This document shows positions 25,629-44,166 of a DNA stretch of 44,166 nt, one piece after another. Below the pieces are notes generated by a model. The model had not been told where the DNA came from. It was given only the letters and a program-made list of their open reading frames with translations, and made no database searches. Within the stretch, counting starts at the first letter, position 1, and each line of letters opens with the position of its first letter. Origin of the DNA: Alphaproteobacteria bacterium MarineAlpha5_Bin9. GTDB taxonomy: Bacteria > Pseudomonadota > Alphaproteobacteria > HIMB59 > GCA-002718135. The position numbers and the translations under genes are program-made. The stretch is taken from the NCBI GenBank assembly GCA_002937895.1, contig PTKV01000014.1, positions 1 to 44,166 on the forward strand, read 5' to 3'.

Positions 25629-25644
25629 AAAAATATCAAAATTG

Positions 25645-25662
25645 TTAATTAATTAATTAATT
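25645..25662. repeat. TTAA tandem repeat, 4.5 copies
   Basis: An 18-base run of the tetranucleotide TTAA spans the serC stop codon (25657-25659) and the gap before the ureohydrolase start. Copy-number change here would alter spacing between the two genes and could shift the last codons of serC. Confidence 0.8.
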
Positions 25663-26820
25663 GTTTATTAATTTTATTTCATTATATGCCCAATTTATCC
25701 AAGGTAAAAGATTTTTAATATCTAATGGATCTATAGTTCCGCCTGCCCAAATTCGAAAAGATGGAGGAGCCTTTGGATATCCAGCAATATCATAGGCAAT
25801 ATTTTCTTTCTGCAATAAAGAAGCTATACTTTTGATAATTTCTCTTTGAATTTTTTCTTCTAGATTTAAATACCATTGCTCACTAATTTTAAAAGTGATT
25901 CCAGTATTGGATCTCAATTTTTCATCTTCACACAAAAAATCCACCCAGTCATTTTCATAAATCCATTTACTGACATAATTAAAAGAAGTTTGCGAACGAT
26001 TTAGTAATTCTGAAAGTCCGCCAATTTTTTCAACCCAATTTAGAGAATCTAATGCATCTTCTACACAAATCATTGAAGGCGTGTTTATTGTGTTTCCTTC
26101 AAAAATTCCAGATATGATTTTTTTATTTTGTGCTATTCTAAAAGCTTTAGGTATTGGCCAAATAGGTTTAAAAGTTTCCAATCTTTTTATTGCTCTAGGA
26201 GAAAGAGCTAACATGCCATGAGCAGCTTCGCCCCCTAGAACTTTTTGCCATGACCATGTTATTACATCACATTTTTCATAATCTATTGGCATTGCAAAAA
26301 CTGCTGAAGTAGCATCACATATTGTTATACCTTCTCTATCTGAAGAAATCCAATCGCCATTAGGAATTTTTACTCCTGCTGTAGTTCCATTCCATGTAAA
26401 AACTACATCTCTTTTAAAATCAACTTTATTTAAATCAGGTAATTGCCCATATTCTGCTGTGTGTATATTCAAATCTTGTATTTTTAACTCATCTAATAAA
26501 TCTATAACCCAATCCTTTCCAAAATTTTCCCATGCCAAAACATCAACACCTCTTTCTCCTAACATGCACCAAAAAGCAGCCTCTAAGGAGCCTGTATTTG
26601 AGCCGGGCATAATTCCTAAAAGATATTCTTTTGGCAAGTTTAAAATATTTTTAGATTTTAAAATTATTTCCTTAAGTTTTTCTTTTGCAGGAGCTGAACG
26701 ATGAGATCTTCCTACTAAAGCATTTTGTAATTCAGAGATTTTCCAACCAGGTCTTTTAGAAGTTGGTCCACTTGAAAAATTTGGGTTTTTTGGTTTTTCT
26801 GTTGGTTTTATATTATTCAC
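25657..26820 (-). CDS. serC: Phosphoserine aminotransferase, alphaproteobacterial type
   Basis: SerC transaminates 3-phosphohydroxypyruvate to phosphoserine and also acts in DXP-dependent vitamin B6 synthesis. The protein follows the TIGR01365-type sequence closely: NPNFSSGPTSKRPGW at the start, GRSHRSAPAKEKLKE, VFTWNGTTAGVKIPNGDW, ICDATSAVFA, the PLP lysine in WSWQKVLGGEAAHG, and GIFEGNTINTPSM. An ATG at 26871 would add 17 hydrophobic residues unlike the family, so I take the GTG at 26820 (387 residues), which starts close to the conserved NPNFSSG. No serA or serB is next to it. It may be a second copy. Confidence 0.85.
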   Translation of the reverse strand: MNNIKPTEKPKNPNFSSGPTSKRPGWKISELQNALVGRSHRSAPAKEKLKEIILKSKNILNLPKEYLLGIMPGSNTGSLEAAFWCMLGERGVDVLAWENFGKDWVIDLLDELKIQDLNIHTAEYGQLPDLNKVDFKRDVVFTWNGTTAGVKIPNGDWISSDREGITICDATSAVFAMPIDYEKCDVITWSWQKVLGGEAAHGMLALSPRAIKRLETFKPIWPIPKAFRIAQNKKIISGIFEGNTINTPSMICVEDALDSLNWVEKIGGLSELLNRSQTSFNYVSKWIYENDWVDFLCEDEKLRSNTGITFKISEQWYLNLEEKIQREIIKSIASLLQKENIAYDIAGYPKAPPSFRIWAGGTIDPLDIKNLLPWINWAYNEIKLINN

Positions 26821-26906
26821 AATATTCGATTTTATTTTATTTAAATAATATATTATAAATAACAGAATCATTATAACAAATCTATAATTAAAAATAAGGT
26901 TTTAAA

Positions 26907-28845: not shown

Positions 28846-29019
28846 TTATTTAGTTTTATCAGAAACTTCATTCTCATGCTTTGCAGCAGCACCTATTACC
28901 CATACATGAAGTGCCACAACTATCAAAACAATGAAAATTAACATCCCAGGACTATCCGCCCAAGTGAAGTATGCATCTACACCTTCCCAACTATTTTCTG
29001 GTCCAGGCCAAGTATTCAT
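28846..29019 (-). CDS. 57-aa membrane protein in the amt operon
   Basis: The frame starts at ATG 29019-29017 and ends at TAA 28848-28846. The N terminus is Trp/Pro/Asp-rich (MNTWPGPENSWEGVDAYF), followed by one membrane helix (about residues 24-43) and a charged C tail with KHENEVSDKTK. AAGGAT stands about six bases before the start. It follows the ammonium transporter gene by 27 bases on the same strand and precedes the strong terminator, so it should be cotranscribed. A single-span protein behind amt could modulate or accompany the transporter. I know no named family for it. Confidence 0.7.
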   Translation of the reverse strand: MNTWPGPENSWEGVDAYFTWADSPGMLIFIVLIVVALHVWVIGAAAKHENEVSDKTK

Positions 29020-29046
29020 AAAAAGATCCTTTCATTATTTTTATAA

Positions 29047-30327
29047 TTAATCATAGTAAGCTTTAAGCGACAACTCTTCCTTATCAAGTCCAGCTTCTTG
29101 AACATGGTCAGGTATTCTTAACCAATTTAATTTGTTCATTATCCATGAAATAACATATCCAGGAACAAATCCTAAAAGGAAGAATGTGATCATTCCTACG
29201 ATTTGACCTAGTAAGTTACTTGCAGGAATGTCTCCAGATGCAGGGAAGCCAGAAGCAAAAATACCACAAGCTAATAATCCCCATAAACCGGCAACACCAT
29301 GCACAGATACAGCACCTACACAATCGTCAATTTTGAATGTTTTTGCAAGCCAATTATGAGCGGGTATAATTATGCAACCCCCCACAAAGCCAAGAACAAA
29401 AGCTAAACCAGGATAAAGAATATCTAAAGCAGCAGCACATGAGAATATTCCAGCTAATCCTCCAGACATCATCCAAAATGGATTACCTTTACTCACTAAA
29501 TATCCACCTATCATTCCACCTGACAAGCCCATTAATGTATTAAAAGCAAAAGCAGATAAATTTGCTGGTGAGCCATAAATATTTACCCATCCACCAAAAT
29601 CTGTGCCTGCCCAGATTAAACAAGCACCTAAGAAACCAAAAAATCCAACTATAAGAAATAATAACCCAACAAAAGAAAAAATCAAATTATGTCCATCTAA
29701 TTCATTCATTGTTCCATCCGCATTAAATTTTCCAACTCTAGGTCCAAGATTTAAAAGTACACCAAAAGCATACCAGCCAGCTACTGTGTGAACACAACCC
29801 GCAGCTGCAACATCATGTAAGCCAAAAGTAGTTACTAACCACCCATCAGGATGCCAACCCCAAGAAGCTCCTAAAATCCAAACAACAGATCCTAAAATAA
29901 TAGCAAGAAAAGAAAATGAACTAATTCTTATTCTTTCTATTACAGAACCAGAAAAAATTGATGCTGTAGTGCAGGCAAAAAGTGTAAAAGCTGCCCAAAA
30001 TACTCCTGTTGCTTGATCGCTAAGCATAGGCCCCATCGATGTATTCCAAGGAACACCATATCCCTCTAAATCAATTGGAACAAATCCATTTGGAAAAGCT
30101 AAATAAATATACCATCCAAATAACCAAAATGTAGGTATCATGAAAGCAAATGCTAACAAATTTTTTACTCCAGATGAAACTGCATTTTTCATCCTTGTTG
30201 CGCCAACCTCATATAAAAGGAAACCGCAATGTATTATAACCATAAGTGCTGTACACCACCAATAATAGGCTTCCATGCCTACATTAGCCTGTGTACTTAC
30301 CATGGTTTCTAATTCTGCAGGACTCAT
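29047..30327 (-). CDS. amt: Ammonium transporter, Amt family
   Basis: The 426-residue channel carries ammonium across the inner membrane. It has about eleven hydrophobic segments, the pore His in HDVAAAGCVHTVAGWYAFG (about 173-191), and the C-terminal signature DDCVGAVSVHGVAGLWG (about 336-352) with the second pore His. No glnK is adjacent, although Amt genes usually pair with it. The 57-aa membrane protein gene follows. The gene is divergent from the GS-family gene at 30547, and a 25-base inverted repeat lies 22 bases upstream of its start. The context is nitrogen acquisition beside methylamine breakdown. Confidence 0.94.
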   Translation of the reverse strand: MSPAELETMVSTQANVGMEAYYWWCTALMVIIHCGFLLYEVGATRMKNAVSSGVKNLLAFAFMIPTFWLFGWYIYLAFPNGFVPIDLEGYGVPWNTSMGPMLSDQATGVFWAAFTLFACTTASIFSGSVIERIRISSFSFLAIILGSVVWILGASWGWHPDGWLVTTFGLHDVAAAGCVHTVAGWYAFGVLLNLGPRVGKFNADGTMNELDGHNLIFSFVGLLFLIVGFFGFLGACLIWAGTDFGGWVNIYGSPANLSAFAFNTLMGLSGGMIGGYLVSKGNPFWMMSGGLAGIFSCAAALDILYPGLAFVLGFVGGCIIIPAHNWLAKTFKIDDCVGAVSVHGVAGLWGLLACGIFASGFPASGDIPASNLLGQIVGMITFFLLGFVPGYVISWIMNKLNWLRIPDHVQEAGLDKEELSLKAYYD

Positions 30328-30348
30328 AATAATAACTCCTTTGATCTA

Positions 30349-30373
30349 GTTCATTTAATTAATTTAAATGAAC
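30349..30373. promoter_or_regulatory. 25-base inverted repeat upstream of amt
   Basis: GTTCATTTAA (30349-30358) and TTAAATGAAC (30364-30373) are perfect ten-base arms around a five-base spacer, 22 bases upstream of the amt start on the minus strand. The position suits an operator for a dimeric regulator or a leader hairpin. The rest of 30374-30546 is A/T-rich and I see no other site in it. Confidence 0.5.
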
Positions 30374-30546
30374 GATTAATAAGATTATTTTATCTTTATT
30401 AAGACACACTAACAATAAAATGTTTAATTTATTTTAATATTAAATTATTGAAATATATGTATTTTTTAATTGTTAATAAGATTTATTTTTTTTTTTAGAT
30501 AAATATATTAATAATAATTTAATTTAAAATTAACTTATAAAAATTT

Positions 30547-31875
30547 ATGCCTTATAATTTAAAACTTATTGCAAAAAAGAAAAAAATAAAATATTTCTTA
30601 ATTAGCTTTGTTGATTTTTTTGGAGTTCTAAGAGCAAAGCTTGTGCCAGCTCAAGCTATTAGTGAGATGCAAAAAGATGGAGCCGGATTTGGAGGTTTTG
30701 CAGCATATCTTGATATGCCTCCATCTGACCCAGATGTTCTAGCAATACCTGACCCCAATAGTTTAATTCAACTGCCTTGGAACCCAGAGGTGGGTTGGCT
30801 AGCATCAGATTTATGGCTTCATGGAAAACCTGTTCAAGCATCTCCTCGAATAATGCTTAAAGAACAAATTAAATTATTATCAAAAAAGAACTTGTATTTA
30901 CAAAGTGGAGTTGAGTGTGAATATTTTTTACTTAACCCAGAAGGAACTGAGATAGCTGATAAATTTGATATAGCTTCTAAACCTTGCTATGATCAATCAG
31001 CTTTGATGAGACAATACGATATAATTAAAGAAATTTGTGATTCAATGATTAAACTAGGATGGGGACCTTATCAAAATGATCATGAGGATGCTAATGGACA
31101 ATTTGAAATGAATTGGAATTTTTCACATTGCCTTGCAACAGCTGACAGACATGTTTTTTTTAAATTTATGGTTAAATCAATAGCAGAAAAACATGGTTAT
31201 AGAGCAACTTTTATGCCGAAACCTTTTCTGAATAAAACTGGTAACGGTTGCCACGCTCATCTTTCTTTATGGAATAAATCTAAAAAAAATATGTTTATAA
31301 ACAAGAAAGATAATTTTGGCCTAACTACTTTAGCCTATAATTTTATGGGTGGTATTATTTATTCAGCTGAAGCATTAACAGCTTGGTTTAATCCTACAAT
31401 CAATAGTTATAAAAGAATTAACGCCCCAGTTACTCATTCAGGGGCAACATGGTCTCCCAATACAATAACATATTCTAATAACAATAGAACACATATGATT
31501 AGAGTGCCTGGACCTGGACGTTTTGAAATAAGATTAATGGATGGTGCGGTTAATCCTTATCTTCTTCAAGCAGGAATAATTGCTGCTGGTATAGATGGTA
31601 TAGAAAACAAAAGAAATCCTGGAAAACCAATTTTTTTAAATATGTATGAAGATAGTCATAAAATAAAAAATTTAAAAAAACTTCCTTCATCATTAGAAGA
31701 GTCATTAAATTTTCTAGAAAAAAATAATGTGCTCAACAAAGCTTTTGGTAAAGATGTAATTAAATCCTATATTAAATTAAGAAATAGTGAAATAGAAAAC
31801 TATAAGTTATCTGAAGGTTCATTTAATTCTGATAAAATAACTAGTTGGGAAGTAAAAAACACTTTAGACTGCTAA
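30547..31875 (+). CDS. gmaS: GlnT/GmaS-type ligase (probable gamma-glutamylmethylamide synthetase)
   Basis: The 442-residue protein belongs to the glutamine synthetase III-like GlnT group, to which gamma-glutamylmethylamide synthetase (GmaS: glutamate + methylamine + ATP) belongs. It starts with IKYFLISFVDFFGVLRAKLVPA and has GVECEYFLLNPEG (about 120), NDHEDANGQFEMNW (about 178), GNGCHAHLSLW, the nucleotide-region NNRTHMIRVPGPGRFEIR and the C-terminal TLDC. All metal-site Glu residues appear present. Proximity to MgsABC and Tdm supports a GmaS role; a plain GlnT glutamine synthetase is the alternative. It is divergent from amt, and the 180-aa gene follows by 10 bases. Confidence 0.7.
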   Translation: MPYNLKLIAKKKKIKYFLISFVDFFGVLRAKLVPAQAISEMQKDGAGFGGFAAYLDMPPSDPDVLAIPDPNSLIQLPWNPEVGWLASDLWLHGKPVQASPRIMLKEQIKLLSKKNLYLQSGVECEYFLLNPEGTEIADKFDIASKPCYDQSALMRQYDIIKEICDSMIKLGWGPYQNDHEDANGQFEMNWNFSHCLATADRHVFFKFMVKSIAEKHGYRATFMPKPFLNKTGNGCHAHLSLWNKSKKNMFINKKDNFGLTTLAYNFMGGIIYSAEALTAWFNPTINSYKRINAPVTHSGATWSPNTITYSNNNRTHMIRVPGPGRFEIRLMDGAVNPYLLQAGIIAAGIDGIENKRNPGKPIFLNMYEDSHKIKNLKKLPSSLEESLNFLEKNNVLNKAFGKDVIKSYIKLRNSEIENYKLSEGSFNSDKITSWEVKNTLDC

Positions 31876-31885
31876 TAAAATAAAT

Positions 31886-32428
31886 ATGTCAATCTTTTGG
31901 GACGACTTTGTTAAATGGCAATGTAATCTACGTCAAAATAATTTTAGAAAAGATAAAGGCTTGCCTTCAGAAGGAACACTAGCAAAAATTCTTTATAAAA
32001 ATACAAATATAGAAATTTTAACAATAAGATCTATTCTAATTGAAAAAAAATATAATAATACATTAAAAATGTTTGAATTTATGTTTAAAAAAACCCACGA
32101 TCCAGAAGAAAGATATTTAAAAGCTGTAAAATTTTTTTCATCAGAATATTTTGATGATCCCAAAATTTTTGACGGTTCTTTTACAGCAACCTTTTCTAAA
32201 GATTCATCTATATTAAAGAAGATATTAATTAAAAAAAAATTTAATGTTCAATTTTTTCAAGATAACATGGGTTTTGACTTTGAAGTTAAAGTCATTAAAC
32301 TTAAAAAAAAAGAACCTCTTTGGCTATTTACTTTTTTTCATAATTCTTTTTTTAATCCTCAATTAAATGAAGATATCGAAATTTTATATTTTAAACCCGA
32401 GATAACTAGTGCAAAAAAAATTATTTAA
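31886..32428 (+). CDS. Conserved hypothetical protein, 180 aa
   Basis: This soluble protein begins MSIFWDDFVKWQCNLRQ and has FKKTHDPEERYLKAVKFFSSEYF in the middle (split) and a WLFTFFHNSFFNPQL segment near residue 155. I recognise the overall pattern as a conserved alphaproteobacterial family of unknown function, but cannot name it. It contains one cysteine, Cys14, so no metal site is apparent. It lies 10 bases after the GlnT/GmaS gene and is probably cotranscribed. Its stop overlaps the convergent 130-aa gene by four bases. A role in amine or nitrogen metabolism is only suggested by position. Confidence 0.6.
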   Translation: MSIFWDDFVKWQCNLRQNNFRKDKGLPSEGTLAKILYKNTNIEILTIRSILIEKKYNNTLKMFEFMFKKTHDPEERYLKAVKFFSSEYFDDPKIFDGSFTATFSKDSSILKKILIKKKFNVQFFQDNMGFDFEVKVIKLKKKEPLWLFTFFHNSFFNPQLNEDIEILYFKPEITSAKKII

Positions 32429-32817
32429 TCAGATTTTTTATAAGCTTTTTTTAAAACCACTAATGGATGATTGGGAGACATTTGAAATTTTATAAGAAGT
32501 TCTCTTGCAATCATGTCTCTATCTTGTTGATTTTTAGGTAATTTCATTTTGGGAGGAGCTGTTACCCATCCATTAATATTTCTATCAAATACAGCTGGTT
32601 TACCGTCTTCATATCCCATATGAACATCCTCAAGCCAATTAAGATCATCCCAACCCATATGTTCTATATATTTCTTTAAAAAGGGTGTGAGTCTATTGTA
32701 ATCAGGTAATAAATTAACATCATATCTATATCCTATGTGCTGACCTATCATTTTTTCTCTTGAAGATTTTATATCTGAATCTTTTCTTTTAGATTTATTT
32801 TTTGTTTTCTTTTTCAT
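32425..32817 (-). CDS. Hypothetical protein, 130 aa, last gene of the mgs operon
   Basis: The protein has a Lys/Ser-rich start, then YRYDVNLLPDYNRLTPFLKKYIEHMGW (split; about residues 30-56), LNWLEDVHMGYEDGKPAVFDR, and a C-terminal helix with SPNHPLVVLKKAY. It has no cysteine, so it is not SoxD/MgdB, the zinc-binding small subunit expected beside a sarcosine-oxidase-type enzyme. It follows mgsC by 13 bases on the same strand, making it part of the operon. I know no family for it. An accessory subunit is a reasonable guess and no more. Confidence 0.6.
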   Translation of the reverse strand: MKKKTKNKSKRKDSDIKSSREKMIGQHIGYRYDVNLLPDYNRLTPFLKKYIEHMGWDDLNWLEDVHMGYEDGKPAVFDRNINGWVTAPPKMKLPKNQQDRDMIARELLIKFQMSPNHPLVVLKKAYKKSD

Positions 32818-32830
32818 ATTAATTCATAAT

Positions 32831-34177
32831 TTAAATTGAATGGAAGTTGTCTACACCTACTGTGTAGTCAGTTCCAGCAAGAGGAACTTTTGCCATGGCA
32901 GAAGCTTCCATGGTTAAAGCTGCTAAATCTTCAGGCTCTAATGAATGAATATTTGTTTTTCCACAAGCTCTTGCTAGTAATTGAGCTTCCAAAGTCATTG
33001 AATGCAAATAATTATATACTCTTAAAGCAGCATCATCTGGGTTTAATCTTTTTCTTAATTGTGGATCTTGAGTTGCAACTCCTACTGGACAACGCCCAGT
33101 GTGACAATGATAACACTTACCAGCTTCAACACCCAATTCCTTTTCAAAATTTGCTTCAGGAATGTCTTTATTGCAATTAAGAGCTATTAATGCTCCTGTA
33201 CCAACAGATACGCAATCTGCACCTAAAGCTAAAGCTTTGGCCATGTCAGCTCCATCTCTAATTCCACCAGCAAAAATTAGAGTAACTTCACCAGATTTTC
33301 CCACATCATCTAGAGCTCTTCTTGCCTCCCTAACAGCTGCTATACCTGGTATGCCAGTATTTGCTGCAGCGATGTGTGGACCAGCACCTGTTGAACCTTC
33401 CATACAGTCAAGATAAATTGAATCTGGATCACATTTTGCAGCCATTCTTACATCATCATAAACTTTTGCAGCTCCTAATTTTAACTGAATAGGAACCTGA
33501 TTATCAGTAAGTTCTCTCAATTCTTGAACTTTAAGAGCTAAATCATCTGGTCCTAGCCAATCAGGATGTCTTGCAGGTGATCTTTGGTCTATTCCTGCTG
33601 GCAATGAACGCATTTCTGCAACTTGATCGGTAACTTTTTGACCCATTAAATGTCCGCCCATACCAACTTTTTGACCTTGACCAATAAAAACTTCTATTCC
33701 ATCTGCAAGTTGAGCATGATGAGGATTAAAACCATATCTTGATTGAATACATTGATAATACCACAACTCAGAATATCTTCTTTCATCTGGTATCATTCCT
33801 CCTTCACCAGAGCATGTTGCACTTCCGGCCATTGTAGCGCCTCGGGCTAAAGCAGTTTTAGCTTCATAAGACAAAGCACCAAAACTCATACTAGTTATAT
33901 AAATTGGTATATCAAGCTTAATTGGGTTTTTACATCTTGGGCCAATTATAGTTCTGGTTTCGCATTTTTCTCTATACCCTTCAATAACAAATCTTGTCAA
34001 AGTTCCAGGTAAAAAAGTTAGATCATCCCAATGTGGAATTTTTTTAAACAAAGCCATACCACGCATTCTATATCTACCCAATTGTGACTTTGCATGTATA
34101 TCGTTTATAACATCTGGAGTGAAAATTGAATTTTGTCCAAGAATACTTTTATTATCTTTATTGTTTTTCTTCGCCAT
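32831..34177 (-). CDS. mgsC: N-methylglutamate synthase-type subunit C (GltB FMN domain)
   Basis: The 448-residue protein is the FMN-binding TIM-barrel domain of glutamate synthase as a separate subunit. In MgsABC it joins methylamine-derived nitrogen to 2-oxoglutarate to give N-methylglutamate. Key stretches are PIYITSMSFGALSYEAK, GEGGMIPDER, GQGQKVGMGGHLMG, IQLKLGAAKVYDDV, the EGSTGAGPHI loop, and the iron-sulfur cluster cysteines CYHCHTGRCPVG (about 358-369). It follows mgsB by nine bases. Related stand-alone sets (GlxBCD) exist; the methylated-amine genes around it favour the Mgs reading. Confidence 0.85.
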   Translation of the reverse strand: MAKKNNKDNKSILGQNSIFTPDVINDIHAKSQLGRYRMRGMALFKKIPHWDDLTFLPGTLTRFVIEGYREKCETRTIIGPRCKNPIKLDIPIYITSMSFGALSYEAKTALARGATMAGSATCSGEGGMIPDERRYSELWYYQCIQSRYGFNPHHAQLADGIEVFIGQGQKVGMGGHLMGQKVTDQVAEMRSLPAGIDQRSPARHPDWLGPDDLALKVQELRELTDNQVPIQLKLGAAKVYDDVRMAAKCDPDSIYLDCMEGSTGAGPHIAAANTGIPGIAAVREARRALDDVGKSGEVTLIFAGGIRDGADMAKALALGADCVSVGTGALIALNCNKDIPEANFEKELGVEAGKCYHCHTGRCPVGVATQDPQLRKRLNPDDAALRVYNYLHSMTLEAQLLARACGKTNIHSLEPEDLAALTMEASAMAKVPLAGTDYTVGVDNFHSI

Positions 34178-34186
34178 AGATTTTAT

Positions 34187-35029
34187 CTAAATTGCTCCTT
34201 TTTTTTCTGTTGGTTCAAGATTGTCATAATTCCATAGTTTTTTTCCAGAAACTATTTTTTTAAAATTTTTAAAATTAATTTTTTTATCTATTTCAGCTAC
34301 CTTTAATTTTCTTTTTAACCATGAATGATCTAGTTCAGTTAATTCACCCTCTACAGCATCTGCTCCAAGAGATCCAATTTGACCCCCAACAAATATTGTT
34401 CCATCATACATTGAATCTCCTAAATTAGGTCCTACGTTTCCTAAAATAATTATACGTCCTCGTTGCATCATAAAGCCAGTAAAAGCTCCTGCATCTCCGC
34501 CAATAATTATAGTGCCACCTTTCATATCAATTCCTGATCTTGCACCTACACTCCCTTTACAAATAAGATCTCCGCCTCTAATAGCTGCTCCAAAACAAGA
34601 ACCAGCATTTTTTTCAATAACAACTTTTCCAGCCATCATGTTTTCAGCACAAGACCATCCAACTCTTCCTGAGATTCTAACAATAGGTCCATCTATAGAA
34701 CCAACACCAAAATAACCAAGACTTCCCTCAATTATTAAATTAAGTTTATTCAAAATACCTACTCCCAAACTATGCTTTGCACCTGGGTTTTTTAAAACTA
34801 TAGTTCCAAAACCTTTTTGCATTAAATTTTTAATTTTTTTATTAAGAGAAACACAATCAAGATCTGAAACATCAATTTCAGTTCTTTTGTTAAAGTCTAC
34901 TTTGTAAGAATTATAGTAAAAAAAATTTTCACTCTCCTCAGGATTAAAAAAAACTTGTTGAGTTCTTCCAGTTAACACTTCTTTATGAAGTCCTAACTGA
35001 TGTGATTTATGATCTTTTAAGCTTGCCAT
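34187..35029 (-). CDS. mgsB: N-methylglutamate synthase-type subunit B (GXGXG domain)
   Basis: The 280-residue protein is the beta-helix domain corresponding to glutamate synthase domain 3. GxGxxG-like repeats are spaced along it: SLGVGILNK, GYFGVGSIDG, GRVGWSCAENMMAG, GSCFGAAIRGG, GSVGARSGIDMKGG, GGDAGAFTGFMMQRG, GNVGPNLGDSMYDG and GGQIGSLGADAVEG. In the whole enzyme it links the amidotransferase and FMN domains. It overlaps mgsA by 13 bases and precedes mgsC by nine, so the three are made together. Length matches MgsB/GlxC. Confidence 0.86.
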   Translation of the reverse strand: MASLKDHKSHQLGLHKEVLTGRTQQVFFNPEESENFFYYNSYKVDFNKRTEIDVSDLDCVSLNKKIKNLMQKGFGTIVLKNPGAKHSLGVGILNKLNLIIEGSLGYFGVGSIDGPIVRISGRVGWSCAENMMAGKVVIEKNAGSCFGAAIRGGDLICKGSVGARSGIDMKGGTIIIGGDAGAFTGFMMQRGRIIILGNVGPNLGDSMYDGTIFVGGQIGSLGADAVEGELTELDHSWLKRKLKVAEIDKKINFKNFKKIVSGKKLWNYDNLEPTEKKGAI

Positions 35030-35958
35030 ACTTTTACTTCACCTTCAAATGGATCATAAGTATCTATTTCATGAGGTAATAAACTTCTTATAGCAACTTC
35101 TTCTGAAGCTAAAGCTACTAAGTCATCACTTTCAAACAATACCATAGGTTTAGCTGCCATATAATCTTTTGCCATTCCTAATTTATCCTTTGTTGCCACT
35201 AAATAAGTAAAAACACCATCAAGATCATCTAAAGAAGATCTCATAGCCTCCTCTAAATTAACACCTTGTCTAATTTTATTAGCAATATACACAGCTATTA
35301 ATTCAGAGTCACAGGTTGACATAAATCTCATTCCCAATTTTTCAAGCTTTCTTCTAGTATTCCAGTAATTAGTTAATTGGCCATTATGGACTACAGAAAC
35401 ATCGCTAAAAGGATATCCCCAAAATGGATGTGCTGATCTAATATCTACACCAGATTCTGTTGCCATTCTTGTGTGCCCTATTCCATGAGTGCCACTAAAT
35501 TCATTCAATCCATATTGTTTTGCGACAACAGATGCGTCTCCTATGTCTTTTACCAATTCTAAAGATTTACCAAGAGATAAAATTTCTGTCATTTCTACAG
35601 ATTCTATTTTTTTAGCCAATTCTAAAAGATCTTCTGATGTACTTATCATATACCTATAAGAATAAGGGGTTATTCTTTTTTCTTCAATAATCTTTGCTCC
35701 ATAATCATTAATAGCAGAATTAACTTTATCTTTTCTATGTTCATATATTGATTCATCTTCAATTATAGCGGAACTGCCCTCCTTGACATTTTCTCCAACT
35801 TTAAATCTTAAAATATAATCTTTGGAATCTGAGTCCCCATATAAAGCATACCCAGTAGAATCTGGTCCTCGATGTTTTAAAGATTGCAACATATTCTGCA
35901 TTTCTTTACCAACATTTGTTGATTTTTTTCTATGAATTAATCCTGCGATACCACACAT
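35017..35958 (-). CDS. mgsA: N-methylglutamate synthase-type subunit A (class II amidotransferase)
   Basis: The 313-residue protein is a class II glutamine amidotransferase domain: Met-Cys2 (MCGIAGLIHRK) provides the nucleophile once Met1 is removed, with SLKHRGPDSTGYAL (about 27-40), ATESGVDIRSAHPFWGYPFSDVSVVHNGQLTNY (split) and TCDSELIAVYIA. In the proposed enzyme it liberates methylamine from gamma-glutamylmethylamide, as it liberates ammonia from glutamine in glutamate synthase. It overlaps mgsB by 13 bases and follows the 490-aa GS-family gene by 19. Confidence 0.86.
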   Translation of the reverse strand: MCGIAGLIHRKKSTNVGKEMQNMLQSLKHRGPDSTGYALYGDSDSKDYILRFKVGENVKEGSSAIIEDESIYEHRKDKVNSAINDYGAKIIEEKRITPYSYRYMISTSEDLLELAKKIESVEMTEILSLGKSLELVKDIGDASVVAKQYGLNEFSGTHGIGHTRMATESGVDIRSAHPFWGYPFSDVSVVHNGQLTNYWNTRRKLEKLGMRFMSTCDSELIAVYIANKIRQGVNLEEAMRSSLDDLDGVFTYLVATKDKLGMAKDYMAAKPMVLFESDDLVALASEEVAIRSLLPHEIDTYDPFEGEVKVWQA

Positions 35959-35977
35959 ATTTTACCTTTCTAAACTT

Positions 35978-37450
35978 TTATGGCAAAACATCTAAATAAG
36001 TATCCACATCCCATTGAGTAACTGCAGATAAGAATCTTTCCCATTCATCTTTTTTATAATGCATAAACACCTTTAACATTTCATCTGGCAAAGCTGATTT
36101 GATAACTTTGTCGTTTTCTAATCTGTTTATTGCTTCTCCCAAAGTTAAAGGAAGTTTATCAACTTTTTTTCCTTCTTTCATTGCTTCATAAATGTTTTTC
36201 TTTTCAGGTTCACCTGGGTCCATTTTATTATCTAGACCATCATCAAATGCCTTTAGTATTCCAGATCCTAATAAATAAGGGTTGTGGGTTGAATCAACTG
36301 ATCTATATTCTACCCTTCCAGGTGCAGATACACGAACACTACATGTTCTATTTTGATATCCCCAATCAGCATAAACAGGAGCCCAAAATCCTGTATCCCA
36401 TAAGCGTCTATATGAATTAACTGTTGGTGAACCTAAACATGTTAGTGCAGGAAGATGAGACAACATTCCTGCAATACTATTTAATCCAACAGGGCCAGGC
36501 TTAACTTCATCTATAGACGGATCTGGCATAAACATATTCTCTCCACCAGAAACATGTGTGAAAACTTGATGCATTCCCGGTAAAGGGTTATTTCCTATTG
36601 GTGTCGATTTCAATTCTCCACCTTTCCACAAAGAAACATTTGTATGGCAGCCATTTGCAGAAACACCCATAAATGGTTTACTCATAAAACAAGCAATTAA
36701 GTTGTGTTCTCTTGCTACTTGAGCACAAATTTGACGATAAGTAGTCAATCTATCAGCGTTTCTTAGAACTTCATCATACATAAAATTTAATTCTAACTGA
36801 CCTGGGGCATCTTCATGATCTCCTTGAATTATATCAAGACCCATGGCTCTAGAATATTCTATTACCTTCATATAAACTGGTCTAAGTGACTCAAATTGAT
36901 CTATATGATAACAATATGGTCTAGAGAATCCATCTCCAGTAGGTTCTCCACTTTCTTTTTTTGTCAACCACATCATCTCAGGTTCTGTACCAGCACGTAA
37001 ATGCATCCCATGTTTAAGTTTAAATTCATCTTGAAATATTTTTAAATTTCCTCTACAATCCGATGTTAGGTGACCACCTGGATTTATTTCTTCTTCTCTG
37101 TTTCTAAAACATGTACAAAAAACTCTAGCAACTCTTTTATCCCAAGGTAATTGGACAAAAGTTTCTGGCTCTGGAAGACCTACTAGCTCAGAAGCTTCAG
37201 GTCCATAACCAATATAATTTCCATGACGATCAAGAAATAGGTTTGCAGTAGCTCCATAAACTAACTGAAATCCCTTTGCGGCAATAGTCTCCCAATGATC
37301 TGCAGGTACGCCTTTACCCACAATTCTTCCTGTAACTGAAACAAACTGATAGTAAATATATGTAATACCCAAGTCGTTGATTTTTTTTCTGACTTCTTTT
37401 ATAAGTTTATCTCTTCCATCTTGATTTACAAATTTTTCTAAATCAGTCAT
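35978..37450 (-). CDS. Second glutamine synthetase-family protein, 490 aa
   Basis: This protein is longer than and clearly different from the 442-aa GlnT/GmaS-type protein at 30547. It has GTEPEMMWL (about 155), QGDHEDAPGQLELNF (about 208), ANGCHTNVSLWKGG (about 264), SPTVNSYRRLWDTGFWAPVY and CSVRVSAPGRVEYRSVDSTHNPY, so metal and nucleotide sites are kept. It has an unusual N-terminal ITYIYYQFVSVTGRIVGKGVP domain. It lies directly before mgsA, in the same operon and after the flavoprotein gene, so it most likely ligates glutamate to an amine used by MgsABC. Either this or the 442-aa protein could be the real GmaS. AGGAG stands four bases before the ATG. Confidence 0.8.
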   Translation of the reverse strand: MTDLEKFVNQDGRDKLIKEVRKKINDLGITYIYYQFVSVTGRIVGKGVPADHWETIAAKGFQLVYGATANLFLDRHGNYIGYGPEASELVGLPEPETFVQLPWDKRVARVFCTCFRNREEEINPGGHLTSDCRGNLKIFQDEFKLKHGMHLRAGTEPEMMWLTKKESGEPTGDGFSRPYCYHIDQFESLRPVYMKVIEYSRAMGLDIIQGDHEDAPGQLELNFMYDEVLRNADRLTTYRQICAQVAREHNLIACFMSKPFMGVSANGCHTNVSLWKGGELKSTPIGNNPLPGMHQVFTHVSGGENMFMPDPSIDEVKPGPVGLNSIAGMLSHLPALTCLGSPTVNSYRRLWDTGFWAPVYADWGYQNRTCSVRVSAPGRVEYRSVDSTHNPYLLGSGILKAFDDGLDNKMDPGEPEKKNIYEAMKEGKKVDKLPLTLGEAINRLENDKVIKSALPDEMLKVFMHYKKDEWERFLSAVTQWDVDTYLDVLP

Positions 37451-37497
37451 ATTTCTCCTCTGTTAATATACCATAATTACTATAAACTAACTGCATT

Positions 37498-38841
37498 TTA
37501 ACTCCAAGGAAAAGGGCTCTGAGAAACTGGGTGCAACTCTCCCTTAATGAAGCGTGAAAAACGGAAAGGATCCAATAAGCTGCTTTTTTCGCCTAAAACT
37601 TCATCAGCTACCAATTTACCTACCCCGATCATTTTATATCCGTGATTTGAGTCTGCGATTATATGAACATTTTCTCTAAAAGTATCAAAAACAGGAAAAT
37701 TATCTGGTGTAAAACATCCAAGCCCTCCAGTTGAGCCTTTTTTAAAAAACTTAGATTTATCCTCAAATCTTTTTTGGCAAAATGCTAGTGCTGATGTCCA
37801 CATATGAGCAAAATCATTGCCTATAACAAACTCCTCTGAATCTGGTCCATAAGGATCAACCTTCACATTTTCAGCAGGCATATCAACTTCATAAGGAGAA
37901 GAACCTCCTTGTATTCCATCAAAATGAAAGTCTGGTTTATAGTAAATACCCCAAATATTATCTGTGATTAAAGTTTTATCTTCAATTGAATATAAAGGGG
38001 CGTCAGAATCTACATGAATAACAGGAGGCATATTACCATCATTAGTCAATTGGGTTTTTGGATCTACTCCTAAAACACCTTCAGTTAAAAACCAATATTT
38101 CCACATTGGATAATCATGATGCATATTACCTTTTTCATCTTTGATTGAAATTTTGCTTGGCAAATCAAGCATGTTCCATATATCTCTTAACCATGGTCCA
38201 ACTCCTATGATAACTTTTTCGCACTCAATAGTTCCTTTATCAGTTTCAACAGCAGTTATTGCGCTGCTTCCATTAGCTGATTTAAATCCTTTAACGGTTG
38301 TACCTGTTAATATCCTAACACCTTCATTTTCAGATTTTTTTGCTAATCCATAAATAGAAGATGTATTATTTGCATAGCCTCCTCTTTTCTCATGAAGAAC
38401 AGAGGTGATCCCTTGGGCTTGCCAATCATCAAAAATATTTTTCATATAATCAAATGATTGTTTTTCACCATGTATAAAATTTGATTCATAACCAATTGCT
38501 TTTTGCTCTTGATAAATATTAGCTATATCTTGCTCCATTACCTTTGGGCTTATCTGCATATATCCAACGGGATGATAATGAAAAGCCTCAGGATCGCTCT
38601 CCCATACATCTACACTATGAGCCATTAATTCTCTCATAGCTGGTTGAAAATAATTATTTCTTACAACACCGCATGCGACTCCGCTTGCCCCACTAGCAAT
38701 GCTGTTTTTATCTATAACCAAAATATTTGCTCCATCTCCCTTACTTTTTGCTTTAAGTTTTGTAGCTAAATGCCAAGCGCTACTAAGGCCATGAATCCCT
38801 GCACCTATGATTATGTATTGAACTTTTGAAGGTAAAGCCAT
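37498..38841 (-). CDS. FAD-dependent oxidoreductase, sarcosine oxidase beta/MgdA-like
   Basis: The 447-residue flavoprotein has the dinucleotide motif IIIGAGIHGLSSAWHLA (10-26), the SGASGVACGVVRNNYFQPAM region (split) and the GVGPWLRD and SNHGYKMIGVGKLVADEV C-terminal FAD contacts of the DAO/GlyDH family. It resembles the beta subunit of heterotetrameric sarcosine oxidase and MgdA, which oxidise N-methyl amino acids. Partner subunits (SoxD, SoxA, SoxG) are absent nearby. It heads the operon GS-mgsABC. It could oxidise N-methylglutamate or dimethylamine-derived products, with electrons passed to an unknown acceptor. It is divergent from tdm (124 bases). Confidence 0.8.
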   Translation of the reverse strand: MALPSKVQYIIIGAGIHGLSSAWHLATKLKAKSKGDGANILVIDKNSIASGASGVACGVVRNNYFQPAMRELMAHSVDVWESDPEAFHYHPVGYMQISPKVMEQDIANIYQEQKAIGYESNFIHGEKQSFDYMKNIFDDWQAQGITSVLHEKRGGYANNTSSIYGLAKKSENEGVRILTGTTVKGFKSANGSSAITAVETDKGTIECEKVIIGVGPWLRDIWNMLDLPSKISIKDEKGNMHHDYPMWKYWFLTEGVLGVDPKTQLTNDGNMPPVIHVDSDAPLYSIEDKTLITDNIWGIYYKPDFHFDGIQGGSSPYEVDMPAENVKVDPYGPDSEEFVIGNDFAHMWTSALAFCQKRFEDKSKFFKKGSTGGLGCFTPDNFPVFDTFRENVHIIADSNHGYKMIGVGKLVADEVLGEKSSLLDPFRFSRFIKGELHPVSQSPFPWS

Positions 38842-38965
38842 TTTTCTATTTAAAATATTTATTTAAAATCTATTAAGCTATACTCAAATTATATAAAAGT
38901 ACTGAGAAAGTCCATAATTTTAATTAAAAAAAATAACAAATAGTATATGGTTCGTAATAAGAATT

Positions 38966-41326
38966 ATGTTAGATATTGATATTAATAAATTCAATTTAAG
39001 AAAATCAAACCCTTATCAAGTCGGTAAAACATCATTGAAAAATTCAGAAGAAAGATACATATCGAAATCACTAGGTCTAGTTGGAATAAATATACAAAAA
39101 GGAGATGAGATAAGTATAAAAAATATTGAAGGCATGCAAGCATGTGAGATTGTTAGCTTTGATATAAATGGGATGGATAATTTAGGGATTATAGGCAAAC
39201 AAAAAAATTCAGATGCAAGTTTTATTAAAAAAATTTTAAAATCATCTAACAATAATAAAATATTAATTTCAAAACTCCAAAAAATCAAAATTGATTTGCA
39301 TAATTTTAATTCATATAATTTTTTTGATCAAAAAACCAAAGCTGGTGAAATTGAAAATTTTACAGTTCATGAAAATGGTTTTATTATTGTTTCTTCACCG
39401 GGAGAGTCAATGTCAGTTGAAAATCAAACTGCTGCATCTGATCTAGAAATTATAATTAAAAGAATTAATTCTAATAATAGAAAGTTAGATAGTTTTTTAC
39501 CAGATCCATTAGCTGAAACCAAAAATGAATATTTAATTAAAGATAGTACGGCTATTGCTTATGAAGTAAATAAGGGTGACTTTATCCAAGTTATAGATTT
39601 ATTTGGAAGACAATGCTCTGATTTTATGGCTTTTGATGGTCCTAGTCTTCAAAATGGTAAAGAATTAATGATTGACCCAACAGCTACTAGAGCAATAGTC
39701 GGAGGTGCATACCCTATGCCTGGATTATTTTCAAAATATTTTGATAAAAATCAAGATACACTCATAGAAGTTATTCAAGACACCATTGGAAGGCATGACA
39801 CTTTTGGAACTGCTTGCACTTTAAAAACTTATGAAGATCAAGGTTACTTTGGACATGTTAATTGCTCAGACAATTATAATAAAGAGTTAGAAAATTATGG
39901 AGTAGAGAAAAGAAATGCCTGGCAAGCTATAAATTTATTTTTTAATACATCTATAGACTCAACCAATGTTTTATTTTCTGATATACCTTGGTCAAGAGCT
40001 GGGGATTATGTCCTATTTCAAGCGCAAAAAGATTTAGTTTGTGTATCTTCTGCTTGTCCTGATGATATTGATCCTGCAAATGACTGGAATCCAACTGATA
40101 TTTACGTTAGAGTTTATTCTGAAAAAAATACTTTTTCTAAAGCTATAGGATATAGAAAAAGTGCAGATTCAGATTTTATGTTAACTAAACAAACAGGCTT
40201 TCACAAAAGAACTTCAATGTTAACCAATGATATGATGGAATCATCAGGATTTTGGATACCCAAAAAATATAATAATTATGGAGCAATAGAAGAATATTCT
40301 GCTTGCAGAAATAATGTAACAATTATGGATTTATCTTCTTTACGTAAATTTGAAGTACTTGGACCTGATGCGGAAGAATTGATGAATACAGTATTAACCA
40401 GAAATATTAAGAAATTATCTATAGGTCAAGTTATATATTCTGCTTTATGTTATGAAAATGGTACAATGATAGATGATGGAACTCTTTACAGATTAGGTGA
40501 ACATAATTTTAGATGGATTTGTGGTAATGATTACTCTGGTGAATGGCTAAGAAATATAGCTAAAAAATTAAATTTGAACGCTTGGATTAAGACATCAACA
40601 AATGAACTACATAACATTTCAATTCAAGGACCAAATAGTAGAGACCTTTTATCAAAAATTATATGGACTCCTCCAAATTTTGCAAACATTCAAGATTTAA
40701 AATGGTTTAATTTTTCAATAAGCAGAATTAAAGATCATTTAGGACCTCCTTTAATGTTATCACGTACCGGATATACCGGTGAGTTAGGCTACGAGTTATA
40801 TTGTCATCCAAAAGATGCTGTTAAAATTTGGGACACTGTTTGGAATTTAGGAAAAGAATTTAATTTAACACCAATGGGATTTGAGGCACTAGATATGTTA
40901 AGAATAGAGGCTGGATTAATATTAGGAGGTAATGAATTTAGTGATCAAACAGATCCTTTTGAAGCGGGTATAGGTTTTACTGTCCCTTTAAAAAGCAAAG
41001 ATGTTAATTTTATTGGAAAGGAAGCTCTTATAAAAAGAAAAGAGAACCCTCAAAAAAAACTAGTGGGACTTGAATTAGATGGTAATGAAAAAGCTAATCA
41101 TGGAGATTGCGTTCATATCGATCGTGGACAAGTAGGTATTATAACAAGTGGAACGATGTCGCCTATTCTAAATAAAAACATAGCGTTATGCAGAATTGAT
41201 GCTAATTATTCGGCATTAGAAACTCAAGTAGAAATCGGTAAGCTGGACGGTCATCAAAAAAGAATTAAAGCAAAAATAGTGAATTTTCCATTTTACGATC
41301 CTGAAAAAACAAAAGTTAGATCTTAG
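38966..41326 (+). CDS. tdm: Trimethylamine N-oxide demethylase
   Basis: Tdm cleaves TMAO to dimethylamine and formaldehyde, which its tetrahydrofolate domain can capture. The 786-residue protein has DUF1989-like N-terminal halves (about 1-175 and 185-400) and a GcvT/aminomethyltransferase-like C-terminal domain (about 405-786) with LSRTGYTGELGYELY and GFEALDMLRIEAG. Cys284, Cys300 and Cys364 are spaced 16 and 64 residues apart, as I recall for the zinc-binding cysteines of the Methylocella enzyme. It has no good Shine-Dalgarno sequence. Neighbours tmm and tmoX support the assignment. It is divergent from the MgdA-like flavoprotein. A PLP-enzyme gene follows eight bases later. Confidence 0.92.
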   Translation: MLDIDINKFNLRKSNPYQVGKTSLKNSEERYISKSLGLVGINIQKGDEISIKNIEGMQACEIVSFDINGMDNLGIIGKQKNSDASFIKKILKSSNNNKILISKLQKIKIDLHNFNSYNFFDQKTKAGEIENFTVHENGFIIVSSPGESMSVENQTAASDLEIIIKRINSNNRKLDSFLPDPLAETKNEYLIKDSTAIAYEVNKGDFIQVIDLFGRQCSDFMAFDGPSLQNGKELMIDPTATRAIVGGAYPMPGLFSKYFDKNQDTLIEVIQDTIGRHDTFGTACTLKTYEDQGYFGHVNCSDNYNKELENYGVEKRNAWQAINLFFNTSIDSTNVLFSDIPWSRAGDYVLFQAQKDLVCVSSACPDDIDPANDWNPTDIYVRVYSEKNTFSKAIGYRKSADSDFMLTKQTGFHKRTSMLTNDMMESSGFWIPKKYNNYGAIEEYSACRNNVTIMDLSSLRKFEVLGPDAEELMNTVLTRNIKKLSIGQVIYSALCYENGTMIDDGTLYRLGEHNFRWICGNDYSGEWLRNIAKKLNLNAWIKTSTNELHNISIQGPNSRDLLSKIIWTPPNFANIQDLKWFNFSISRIKDHLGPPLMLSRTGYTGELGYELYCHPKDAVKIWDTVWNLGKEFNLTPMGFEALDMLRIEAGLILGGNEFSDQTDPFEAGIGFTVPLKSKDVNFIGKEALIKRKENPQKKLVGLELDGNEKANHGDCVHIDRGQVGIITSGTMSPILNKNIALCRIDANYSALETQVEIGKLDGHQKRIKAKIVNFPFYDPEKTKVRS

Positions 41327-41334
41327 GTTATAAA

Positions 41335-42318
41335 TTGGTACTAAAGTTTGATCGTTATAAACTTGGTAACTTTCCTACACCAATAGAATTTTTAAAAAAT
41401 ATTTCTAATCATTTAAATGGTCCTCAAATATTCATAAAAAGAGATGATTGTACAGGCTTAGCTACTGGTGGGAATAAGACTAGAAAATTAGAATATATAA
41501 TGCCAGATGCTGTAAAAAATAATGCTTCATTAGTTATAACTTTAGGAGCAGTTCAATCTAACCATGCCAGACAAACAGCTGCAGCCTGTGCTATTTTAAA
41601 TCTAAAATGTTTAATAATTTTAGAACAAAGATTAGAAAATGCACCAGATGTATATTTTACTTCAAGTAACGTTTTTCTTAATAAATTGTTTGGAGCAGAA
41701 ATAAAAGTTTGTCCAAAAAATGAAAATATTGATAATTTTGTAAATAAAATTATGGAAATAAAAAAAAATGAAGGTGAATCTCCTTATTTTATTCCTGTAG
41801 GTGGCACTAATGAAATTGGTGAATTAGGATATATTGAATGTATAAGAGAAATTGTTCAAGAACAAAAAGAACAAACATTTACTCATATTGTCCTTGCCTC
41901 TGGAAGTGGAGGAACTCATTCAGGCTCAATAGTTGGAAAAATTTTTTATAAAAGTAAAATTAATATTATCGGAATAAGTGTTAAAGATAATAAAAATATT
42001 CAGGAAGAAAAAATATTTAATTTAGCAAAAAAAGGATGTAAGTATATTCGATGTCCATTTCCTAAAAGAGAAGACGTAGTTGTTTTTGATGATTTTGTAG
42101 GTAAGGGGTATGGAGTACCTACAAATGGTATGAAACATGCAATTAAGCTTATGGCTCAAAAAGAAGCTATATTACTTGATCCGGTTTATTCTGGCAAAGC
42201 ATTTGATGGCTTAATTAATCTGATAGATAAAAAATATTTTAAAGATACTGATAAAATACTTTTTATACATACAGGGGGAGCAGTCTCCTTGCATGCATAT
42301 GAGTGGGCTTTTGAATAA
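41335..42318 (+). CDS. PLP enzyme, D-cysteine desulfhydrase/ACC deaminase family
   Basis: The 327-residue protein has the PLP lysine in GGNKTRKLEY (Lys48), QSNHARQTAAA, ASGSGGTHSGSIVG, and LDPVYSGKAFDGL with HTGGAVSLHAYEW at the end. Family members are D-cysteine desulfhydrase, 1-aminocyclopropane-1-carboxylate deaminase and L-cysteate sulfo-lyase. Sequence alone does not separate these, and CuyA-like resemblance is notable in LDPVYSGK. The start is TTG at 41335, eight bases after the tdm stop, so it is cotranscribed with tdm. It converges with tmm. Confidence 0.88.
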   Translation: MVLKFDRYKLGNFPTPIEFLKNISNHLNGPQIFIKRDDCTGLATGGNKTRKLEYIMPDAVKNNASLVITLGAVQSNHARQTAAACAILNLKCLIILEQRLENAPDVYFTSSNVFLNKLFGAEIKVCPKNENIDNFVNKIMEIKKNEGESPYFIPVGGTNEIGELGYIECIREIVQEQKEQTFTHIVLASGSGGTHSGSIVGKIFYKSKINIIGISVKDNKNIQEEKIFNLAKKGCKYIRCPFPKREDVVVFDDFVGKGYGVPTNGMKHAIKLMAQKEAILLDPVYSGKAFDGLINLIDKKYFKDTDKILFIHTGGAVSLHAYEWAFE

Positions 42319-42335
42319 ATTTATTTTAAGATTTA

Positions 42336-43670
42336 TTACTTTGTTGATAAAAAAGTCTTCATGCTATCATCCATAGCTTCAGCCCATATTGTATGGTGAA
42401 TTGGCGCCTTAGTTCCAGTAACTGGTGATGAAAAAGATTTATTTCTATATGTCATAATATCTTCTTCTTTATGATGTTCCCAGTTTTTAAAATGCTTGCG
42501 AATTAATTCAAAATCAATTTTTGGATAATCAGAAGCTGAATAAAGATCTTTTGTATACTCAGTTTGAAAATCTATCATTTGAATAGGATCTTCTAATTTT
42601 TCCTCTTTTGAAATCCATTCATTAATATCTTTTTTTACAAATGTATCATCTGGTATTTTAATTTTACCTAAGATAACATCCCTAGCATACCAAGCTTGAC
42701 AGTCAAACATATTAAAAGTGTGGAACTGATCTTGCATACCTAAATAAAAAATTCTGTGATTATTTTGCAAAATAATTCCCTTATATAATCCTGGGGGATA
42801 CAATCTATTATGAGTTTTAAGTCTTAATTTATCTTCTAAAAAAGGAAAATGATGGAGATAACCACTACATAATATTAATGCATCTACATGTTGCTCATGA
42901 CCATCCTTAAATATTGCTTTATTTCCTTCAAGTTTATCTAAATAATGAACTTCCTTCATTCCTTTAGGCCATTTAAAACCCATAGGATTATTTCTGTAGC
43001 CAATCGTTACAGATTTAGCGCCATATTTATAACATTGTAAGGCAACATCTTCAGCTGAATAACTACTTCCCAAAACTACCACATCTTTATTTCTAAATTC
43101 TTCTGCATCTCTAAAGTCGTGAGAATGTAAAATTCTTCCAGGAAATGAATTCATCCCTTCATACTCAGGAATAAATGGCACAGAAAAATGTCCGGAGGCA
43201 ACAATTAAGTAATCAAAATTTTCTCTTGAAATTAAATTTTTCTTTTTATTTAGAGAAGTAATTTCGAATTTAGATCCATTAAAAATAACATTAATAACAG
43301 TAGTATCAAATTTTATATATTTCTTAAGATTTGCTTTTTTTGCTCTACCTAAAATATAATCATATAAAACTTCTCTAGGAGGAAAAGATGGGATAGGTTT
43401 ACTAAAATGTTCATCAAATGAGTAATCTGCAAATTCTAAACATTCTTTTGGACCGTTGGACCAAAGATATCTATACATGCTATTATGAACACTATCTCCA
43501 TATTGATCGGTTCCAGTTCTCCAACTATAGTTCCACAAACCTCCCCAATCACTTTGTTTTTCATAACAAACCATGTTAGGAGTATCAGATCCTTTTTCCT
43601 GAGCTTGTTGAAAAGCTCTTAACATTGATAGGCCACATGGACCTGAACCTATTATTGCTACACTAGTCAT
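42336..43670 (-). CDS. tmm: Trimethylamine monooxygenase, flavin-containing
   Basis: Tmm oxidises trimethylamine to TMAO with FAD, NADPH and O2. The 444-residue protein has the FAD motif GSGPCG (8-13), the FMO signature FPGRILHSHDF (176-186), the NADPH motif LGSSYSAED (200-208) and the Tmm-characteristic WGGLWNYSWRTG, MYRYLWSNGPKECLEFADY and DQFHTFNMFDCQAWYARDV segments (the latter two split over the text). Length equals that of known bacterial Tmm. It is divergent from tmoX, about 165 bases apart, and converges with the PLP enzyme gene after 17 bases. Confidence 0.95.
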   Translation of the reverse strand: MTSVAIIGSGPCGLSMLRAFQQAQEKGSDTPNMVCYEKQSDWGGLWNYSWRTGTDQYGDSVHNSMYRYLWSNGPKECLEFADYSFDEHFSKPIPSFPPREVLYDYILGRAKKANLKKYIKFDTTVINVIFNGSKFEITSLNKKKNLISRENFDYLIVASGHFSVPFIPEYEGMNSFPGRILHSHDFRDAEEFRNKDVVVLGSSYSAEDVALQCYKYGAKSVTIGYRNNPMGFKWPKGMKEVHYLDKLEGNKAIFKDGHEQHVDALILCSGYLHHFPFLEDKLRLKTHNRLYPPGLYKGIILQNNHRIFYLGMQDQFHTFNMFDCQAWYARDVILGKIKIPDDTFVKKDINEWISKEEKLEDPIQMIDFQTEYTKDLYSASDYPKIDFELIRKHFKNWEHHKEEDIMTYRNKSFSSPVTGTKAPIHHTIWAEAMDDSMKTFLSTK

Positions 43671-43824
43671 TAACTCTCAAGTTCTCAAATAAATAAATTA
43701 TACTAATTATTGCCCAAGAATCAGTAATTATAAAGGAAAAAAAATTTAATTTTTAATTATAATTATTGATTTATCCCTTATATGTATCTACTCTCACTAT
43801 ATATATATTTAACTTTTAAAACTT

Positions 43825-43831
43825 AAGGGGG
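43825..43831 (+). promoter_or_regulatory. Shine-Dalgarno of tmoX
   Basis: AAGGGGG ends four bases before the ATG at 43836 and, with the signal peptide, decides this start. The rest of 43671-43824, the gap to divergent tmm, is A/T-rich with no clear promoter hexamers. Confidence 0.6.
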
Positions 43832-43835
43832 AAAA

Positions 43836-44166
43836 ATGTTAAAAACACTAACAGGTATCTCTGTTGTTATAATGCTTTTTTTTAGTAGTATTTCAAAAGC
43901 TGCAGATACTATAAGAATTCCAGTTTTAAACTGGTCTAGCCAAATAGTTATGGCTAATGTTATGGCTCAAGTTTTTGAAGAAATGGGTCATACTGTAGAA
44001 TTAGTTCCTGCTGAATCAGCTTCTAGATATGAAGCGGTTAGAATTGGTGATCTACATGTTGCTCATGAAACTTGGGAGTCAACTATGGCCCTTCCTTTTT
44101 ATGAAGCTATGGATAAAGGTGGGCTTATTGATGCAGGAAGTCATGACCTAATTACATTCGAAGAAA
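43836..44166 (+). CDS. tmoX: TMAO ABC transporter substrate-binding protein, cut at the window end
   Basis: The first 110 residues are present and the frame runs off the end. Residues 1-23 form a Sec signal peptide (Lys3, hydrophobic core, SKAA), so the protein is periplasmic. DTIRIPVLNWSSQIVMANVM places the ligand-binding Trp33, as in OpuAC-type quaternary-amine binding proteins. In marine alphaproteobacteria this position next to tmm and tdm is TmoX of TmoXWV. A glycine-betaine/choline-binding homologue remains possible. The ATPase and permease genes should lie just beyond the window. Confidence 0.82.
   Translation, partial: MLKTLTGISVVIMLFFSSISKAADTIRIPVLNWSSQIVMANVMAQVFEEMGHTVELVPAESASRYEAVRIGDLHVAHETWESTMALPFYEAMDKGGLIDAGSHDLITFEE

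Follow-up and report, generated by a model that had tools for sequence, protein, structure and literature searches.

What becomes of dimethylamine in a bacterium that makes it from trimethylamine N-oxide (TMAO) and lacks the heme subunit of the known aerobic dimethylamine enzyme? The question is raised by a 44,166-nucleotide stretch of Alphaproteobacteria bacterium MarineAlpha5_Bin9 (GTDB lineage HIMB59; GCA-002718135), hereafter the window, which is the entire contig PTKV01000014.1 (C6) of a 1.23-Mb genome that is 93% complete. Beside the TMAO demethylase gene tdm it carries six genes, DAO447-GS490-GAT-GXGXG-FMN-p130, which form a conserved cassette. We propose that this cassette is probably an alternative to the heme-type DmmABC, a glutamate-based dimethylamine route that applies the logic of the N-methylglutamate pathway with paralogous genes.

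SAR11 bacteria rank with the most numerous of ocean cells, and the fate of dimethylamine in them has been a published gap since 2017: SAR11 lacks dmmDABC, and the genes are scarce in marine metagenomes (Lidbury et al., PMC5520151). The gap had been read as a bottleneck at which dimethylamine escapes to the air and seeds aerosols. Strain HTCC1062 grows, weakly, with TMAO as its only nitrogen source and without dmm, and the authors of that study suggested an unknown DmmDABC isoenzyme (PMC8918994). A cassette replacing the known enzyme would close the SAR11 gap, estimates of marine amine turnover made from dmm gene counts would change, and the glutamylation pathway would gain a new amine specificity.

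Co-occurrence with tdm and exclusion of dmm

This genome carries tmm and tdm without the heme subunit of the known enzyme. Homologues of that subunit (DmmA/HODM, PF11927) were found neither in the whole genome nor in 110 family genomes, in a search that did not cover DmmB and DmmC. The first-pass annotation had found no Dmm genes within the block, and for the heme subunit the statement now extends to the whole assembly.

We then related the cassette ligase GS490 to tdm. Among 385 sampled alphaproteobacterial genomes, GS490 occurs in 40, mostly at 63–77% identity, and it is found together with tdm in 27, where 3.6 would be expected. In the family sample (110 genomes) GS490 occurs in 25, tdm in 24 and both in 22, each discordant copy lying at or near a contig end or on a short contig. 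A link to tdm through single-lineage synteny was rejected, since the genomes with both genes cover 14 families. Strong PF11927 matches among tdm-bearing genomes were absent from all 27 with GS490 and present in six of the eight without it (Fisher p = 1.7e-5, an optimistic value, as related genomes were counted as independent). Setting aside three doubtful tdm genes (G131 and G443, scoring under the family cut-off and lacking GS490, and G367, cut by a contig end) left 0/27 and 5/5, respectively; counted as families, these are 14 with GS490 and five with dmm, with no family shared. At three dmm-positive loci the heme gene stands with a dmmD-like GcvT-domain gene and GmaS-MgsABC, an arrangement matching that described for Ruegeria (PMC5520151, PMC13390433). 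Weak PF11927 matches (51–59 bits) in three genomes of the same order (G139, G367, G445; loci L268, L269) were not scored as Dmm; in the two cases checked, no gene of the query set lay within about 10 kb.

Gene order across relatives

The cassette is conserved as a unit. Every uncut cassette locus has GAT, GXGXG, FMN and p130 around GS490, and most have DAO447. GAT and GXGXG were present in all cassette loci read, and p130 in 33 of 34, the remaining locus being cut by a contig end. The 490-residue glutamine synthetase (GS) homologue, lone flavoprotein and 130-residue protein, listed earlier as unassigned genes, are thus members of one conserved cassette and not strays. The Pelagibacteraceae order, seen at 41 of the 80 collection loci, is tdm, DAO447, GS490, GAT, GXGXG, FMN, p130, amt and GmaS in succession on one strand, with tmoX divergent. 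Loci L117–L119 (families f66 and f76) read tmm-tdm-GS490-GAT-GXGXG-FMN-p130, and in L125 tdm directly precedes GS490. Genomes G157 and G377 (81% and 86% complete) carry the cassette with neither GmaS nor a GmaS-type MgsC, and have an Mgd-type SoxB beside it, which is compatible with a product that reaches Mgd without GmaS.

By gene counting in a single Pelagibacteraceae relative (L220), SAR11_1304–1309 of HTCC1062 should be the cassette, which would then fall inside the SAR11_1302–1316 region described by Sun et al. 2011 (PMC3160333). That paper reports two paralogous sox operons in HTCC1062 and treats SAR11_1304 as a monomeric sarcosine oxidase and 1313–1316 as glxBCD-glnT. SAR11_1305 is annotated glnT, and its mRNA decreases under sulfur limitation together with that of SAR11_1302 (PMC5069961). 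Locus L220 also has small open reading frames of 116 residues between tdm and DAO447 (8161–8511) and of 73 residues after amt (16646–16867).

A synthase paralogous to MgsABC

GAT, GXGXG and FMN subunits lie within one operon, as the MgsABC architecture demands, and the first-pass annotation had named them MgsABC. The three-subunit architecture stands, and the genes belong to a paralogous clade that is not orthologous to the GmaS-linked MgsABC. A search with the FMN subunit in 48 genomes returned copies of the window type at 76% identity or more (76–95% among cassette copies), the GmaS-linked MgsC at 50–55% and remoter types at about 39–43%. In a maximum-likelihood tree the window type and the GmaS-linked MgsC formed separate clades (support 99/98 and 100/99, respectively); the tree holds a few very long branches, none touching this split. 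The clade split and the 50–55% identity led us to reject an ordinary MgsABC. Several relatives carry both synthase sets, sometimes adjacent, and this genome and G315 have GmaS with a synthase of the window type only. The window synthase is central to the alternative route proposed here, with putative chemistry. A fold search with p130 gave no match. Other GAT-GXGXG-FMN sets, of neither cassette nor GmaS type, occur in L284, L287 and L288 and may act on other amines; the L284 and L287 sets have a distant GS beside them.

The cassette ligase and flavoprotein

GS490 falls under the GmaS cut-off of TIGR03105 (Table 1) and keeps, by alignment, nine of nine checked amine-pocket and catalytic residues of RhGmaS (K30, Y147, Q175, D177, E179, E186, N188, W300 and R312; positions from PMC7948447). 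RhGmaS Ala48, at the position of GS Asp50, is Gly in both GS490 and the window GmaS. The alignment held no true ammonia GS: its "GlnA" is a different member of the GS family from this genome, and its L003 entry, from a cut locus, is not a GS. Ordinary GmaS was rejected as the dimethylamine enzyme because RhGmaS is poor on this substrate, with a Km of 16 mM against 27 uM for methylamine (PMC7948447). A more distant GS490 subfamily (53–63% identity) occurs without the cassette in L121, L122 and L127–L130, adjoining another GS-like gene.

The predicted structure of DAO447 (mean pLDDT 87.7) has the fold shared by SoxB, monomeric and heterotetrameric sarcosine oxidase and dimethylglycine dehydrogenase (DMGDH), with matches to 2gag_B (E = 2.5e-25), MSOX and DMGDH at 13–21% identity among the matches listed. 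Aligned with two SoxB proteins, it shows some 50 inserted residues and no counterpart of their GRN segment. It is the lone flavoprotein at the locus, with no SoxD, SoxA or SoxG alongside as an MgdABCD would have. Leaving out two genomes with a stand-alone GS490 only, DAO447 was found in 33 of 38 GS490-positive genomes, and in one of ten other genomes searched.

N-methylglutamate oxidation on another contig

The first-pass annotation had also found no MgdBCD within the block and allowed that the rest of the pathway might lie outside the window. For N-methylglutamate oxidation this proved true: a complete N-methylglutamate dehydrogenase operon, in the order soxB-D-A-G (421, 94, 987 and 196 residues), lies on contig C3, and a further soxB/soxA pair on C19, which rules out a missing Mgd. 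The C3 operon has both features tested for Mgd, the gene order and the grouping of its SoxB with MgdA/SoxB proteins whose genes neighbour GmaS or dmm elsewhere in the sampled genomes. The flavoprotein in the block does lack Sox partners, as described; a complete set of mgdABCD-type genes exists elsewhere. The cassette is therefore unneeded for N-methylglutamate oxidation, and the idea that the unassigned genes form a different route is unnecessary for that step. It is well supported for the dimethylamine step, where the genes are tied to tdm and never occur with dmm among the sampled tdm-bearing genomes.

Proposed pathway and alternatives

In the proposed route, GS490 would ligate Tdm-derived dimethylamine to glutamate in an ATP-driven reaction, giving gamma-glutamyl-dimethylamide. 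The GAT subunit would free the amine within the complex, for the FMN subunit to condense reductively with 2-oxoglutarate. N-methylglutamate synthase is proposed to move the methylamide group onto 2-oxoglutarate in a GS/GOGAT-like manner (PMC6237917), and such a transfer applied to dimethylamine would make N,N-dimethylglutamate the product. DAO447, or a similar SoxB/DMGDH-type flavoprotein, would take off one methyl to leave N-methylglutamate, and the Mgd-type SoxBDAG would take off the last, returning glutamate. With the GmaS-MgsABC-MgdABCD pathway of Methyloversatilis, Methylobacterium extorquens and Ruegeria, the cassette has in common a GS-family ligase, its pocket residues, a three-part synthase and a SoxB-type flavoprotein; it differs in its FMN clade, its 304-bit ligase, p130, a lone SoxB-like flavoprotein, the tie to tdm and the exclusion of dmm. 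It is proposed for the same place after Tdm as DmmDABC and has no heme-subunit homologue; whereas Dmm demethylates oxidatively to methylamine, the cassette would use glutamyl intermediates and bypass methylamine.

That the cassette would replace Dmm is well supported by gene content and is the stronger claim. A route via N,N-dimethylglutamate is the most likely mechanism, for which we infer the substrate, the intermediates, the step order and the roles of DAO447 and p130. We advance tentatively, at somewhat under even chances, the full claim that SAR11 and some dozen further alphaproteobacterial families use, instead of Dmm, a second aerobic dimethylamine route that runs via gamma-glutamyl-dimethylamide and N,N-dimethylglutamate and avoids free methylamine. 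Our literature search, mostly without subscription papers, found no description of a glutamyl route for dimethylamine. Several points weigh against the proposal. The same search did not find N,N-dimethylglutamate as a bacterial intermediate. PF11927 tests the Dmm heme subunit only, and the exclusion comprises fewer independent events than genomes. GS490 occurs in 13 sampled genomes without tdm, or 11 once the two with a stand-alone copy only are excluded; the earlier concern about conservation in relatives that do not use methylamines is borne out to the extent that the link between the gene and TMAO use is not strict. DAO447 is absent from five of the 38 cassette-type genomes, and a 65% identical homologue occurs in a dmm-positive genome without GS490 (G268:C23:298273-299613). 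Finally, GmaS stands without a second MgsABC in this genome and at most Pelagibacteraceae loci, and the cassette synthase may therefore act on methylamine as well.

This last arrangement is also what the nearest alternative would predict, namely that the cassette serves methylamine as an isofunctional N-methylglutamate synthase, with DAO447, whose fold is amine-oxidising, converting dimethylamine to methylamine by itself. We consider this unlikely: many genomes hold the cassette plus a GmaS-linked MgsABC, the cassette encodes its own ligase and is found where GmaS is absent, five cassette-type genomes are without DAO447, and the nearest folds (SoxB, sarcosine oxidase, DMGDH) use N-methyl amino acids rather than free amines. 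The 11 cassette-type genomes without tdm, and the related synthase sets of neither type, would accord with a cassette that merely travels with tdm and whose substrate is ammonia or some other amine, such as ethylamine or a fragment of a polyamine. Such a role predicts neither the exclusion of dmm nor the tmm-tdm-GS490 order, and GS490 keeps the GmaS pocket residues, which makes it quite improbable. Least probable of all, and in our view very unlikely, is that these bacteria have no dimethylamine step and excrete the compound, a reading that the 2017 bottleneck paper would favour for SAR11 from the absence of dmmDABC there and its scarcity in marine metagenomes. Growth of HTCC1062 on TMAO as only nitrogen source requires full demethylation, and excretion would leave the conserved cassette without explanation.

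Gene content of the block

From left to right the block reads amt, GmaS and p180; on the minus strand p130, FMN, GXGXG, GAT, GS490 and DAO447; then tdm, a CuyA-like pyridoxal phosphate (PLP) enzyme, tmm and the start of tmoX (Table 1). Curated profiles and solved-structure matches confirmed the earlier calls of tdm and tmm (both above cut-off) and of GmaS. Those of a partial tmoX and an adjacent amt were upheld as well, the former through the same-position gene of relatives, its fragment having no NCBIfam match, and the latter by a profile match under cut-off.

Table 1. Features of the methylated-amine block, with window coordinates and supporting matches
Feature	Position	Strand	Evidence
tdm, TMAO demethylase (dimethylamine-producing)	38966..41326	+	NF053776, 1114 bits, cut-off 1100
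tmm, trimethylamine monooxygenase	42336..43670	-	NF058570, 743 bits, cut-off 675; 817 bits to PDB 7d4k
tmoX, TMAO-binding protein, truncated at contig end	43836..44165	+	81–88% to same-position gene in several relatives
GmaS, gamma-glutamylmethylamide synthetase (methylamine step)	30547..31875	+	TIGR03105, 607 bits; 562 bits to solved GmaS 7cql
amt, ammonium/methylammonium transporter	29047..30327	-	TIGR00836, 212 bits, under 343-bit cut-off
GS490, GS-family ligase, proposed gamma-glutamyl-dimethylamide synthetase	35978..37450	-	PF00120; TIGR03105, 304 bits, cut-off 470
GAT, class II glutamine amidotransferase subunit of cassette synthase, N-terminal MCGIAG	35017..35958	-	GATase_6/7
GXGXG subunit of cassette synthase	34187..35029	-	PF01493
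FMN/glutamate-synthase-type subunit of cassette synthase	32831..34177	-	PF01645
p130, 130 aa, final cassette gene, possible extra synthase subunit	32425..32817	-	no Pfam/NCBIfam match
DAO447, SoxB-like FAD flavoprotein, proposed N,N-dimethylglutamate demethylating dehydrogenase	37498..38841	-	PF01266; predicted fold
p180, conserved protein, frequent p130 neighbour	31886..32428	+	18/34 loci

Homologues of p180 share 22–62% identity with an invariant WQC motif and matched no known family. The PLP enzyme between tdm and tmm (41335–42318) is near the D-cysteate sulfo-lyase CuyA (405 bits, cut-off 450); a homologue of about 71% identity lies by tdm in L135, L136 and L178 and is absent there in most other relatives. 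Elsewhere in the window, at 24666–26871, an agmatinase gene (TIGR01230, above cut-off) adjoins one for phosphoserine transaminase.

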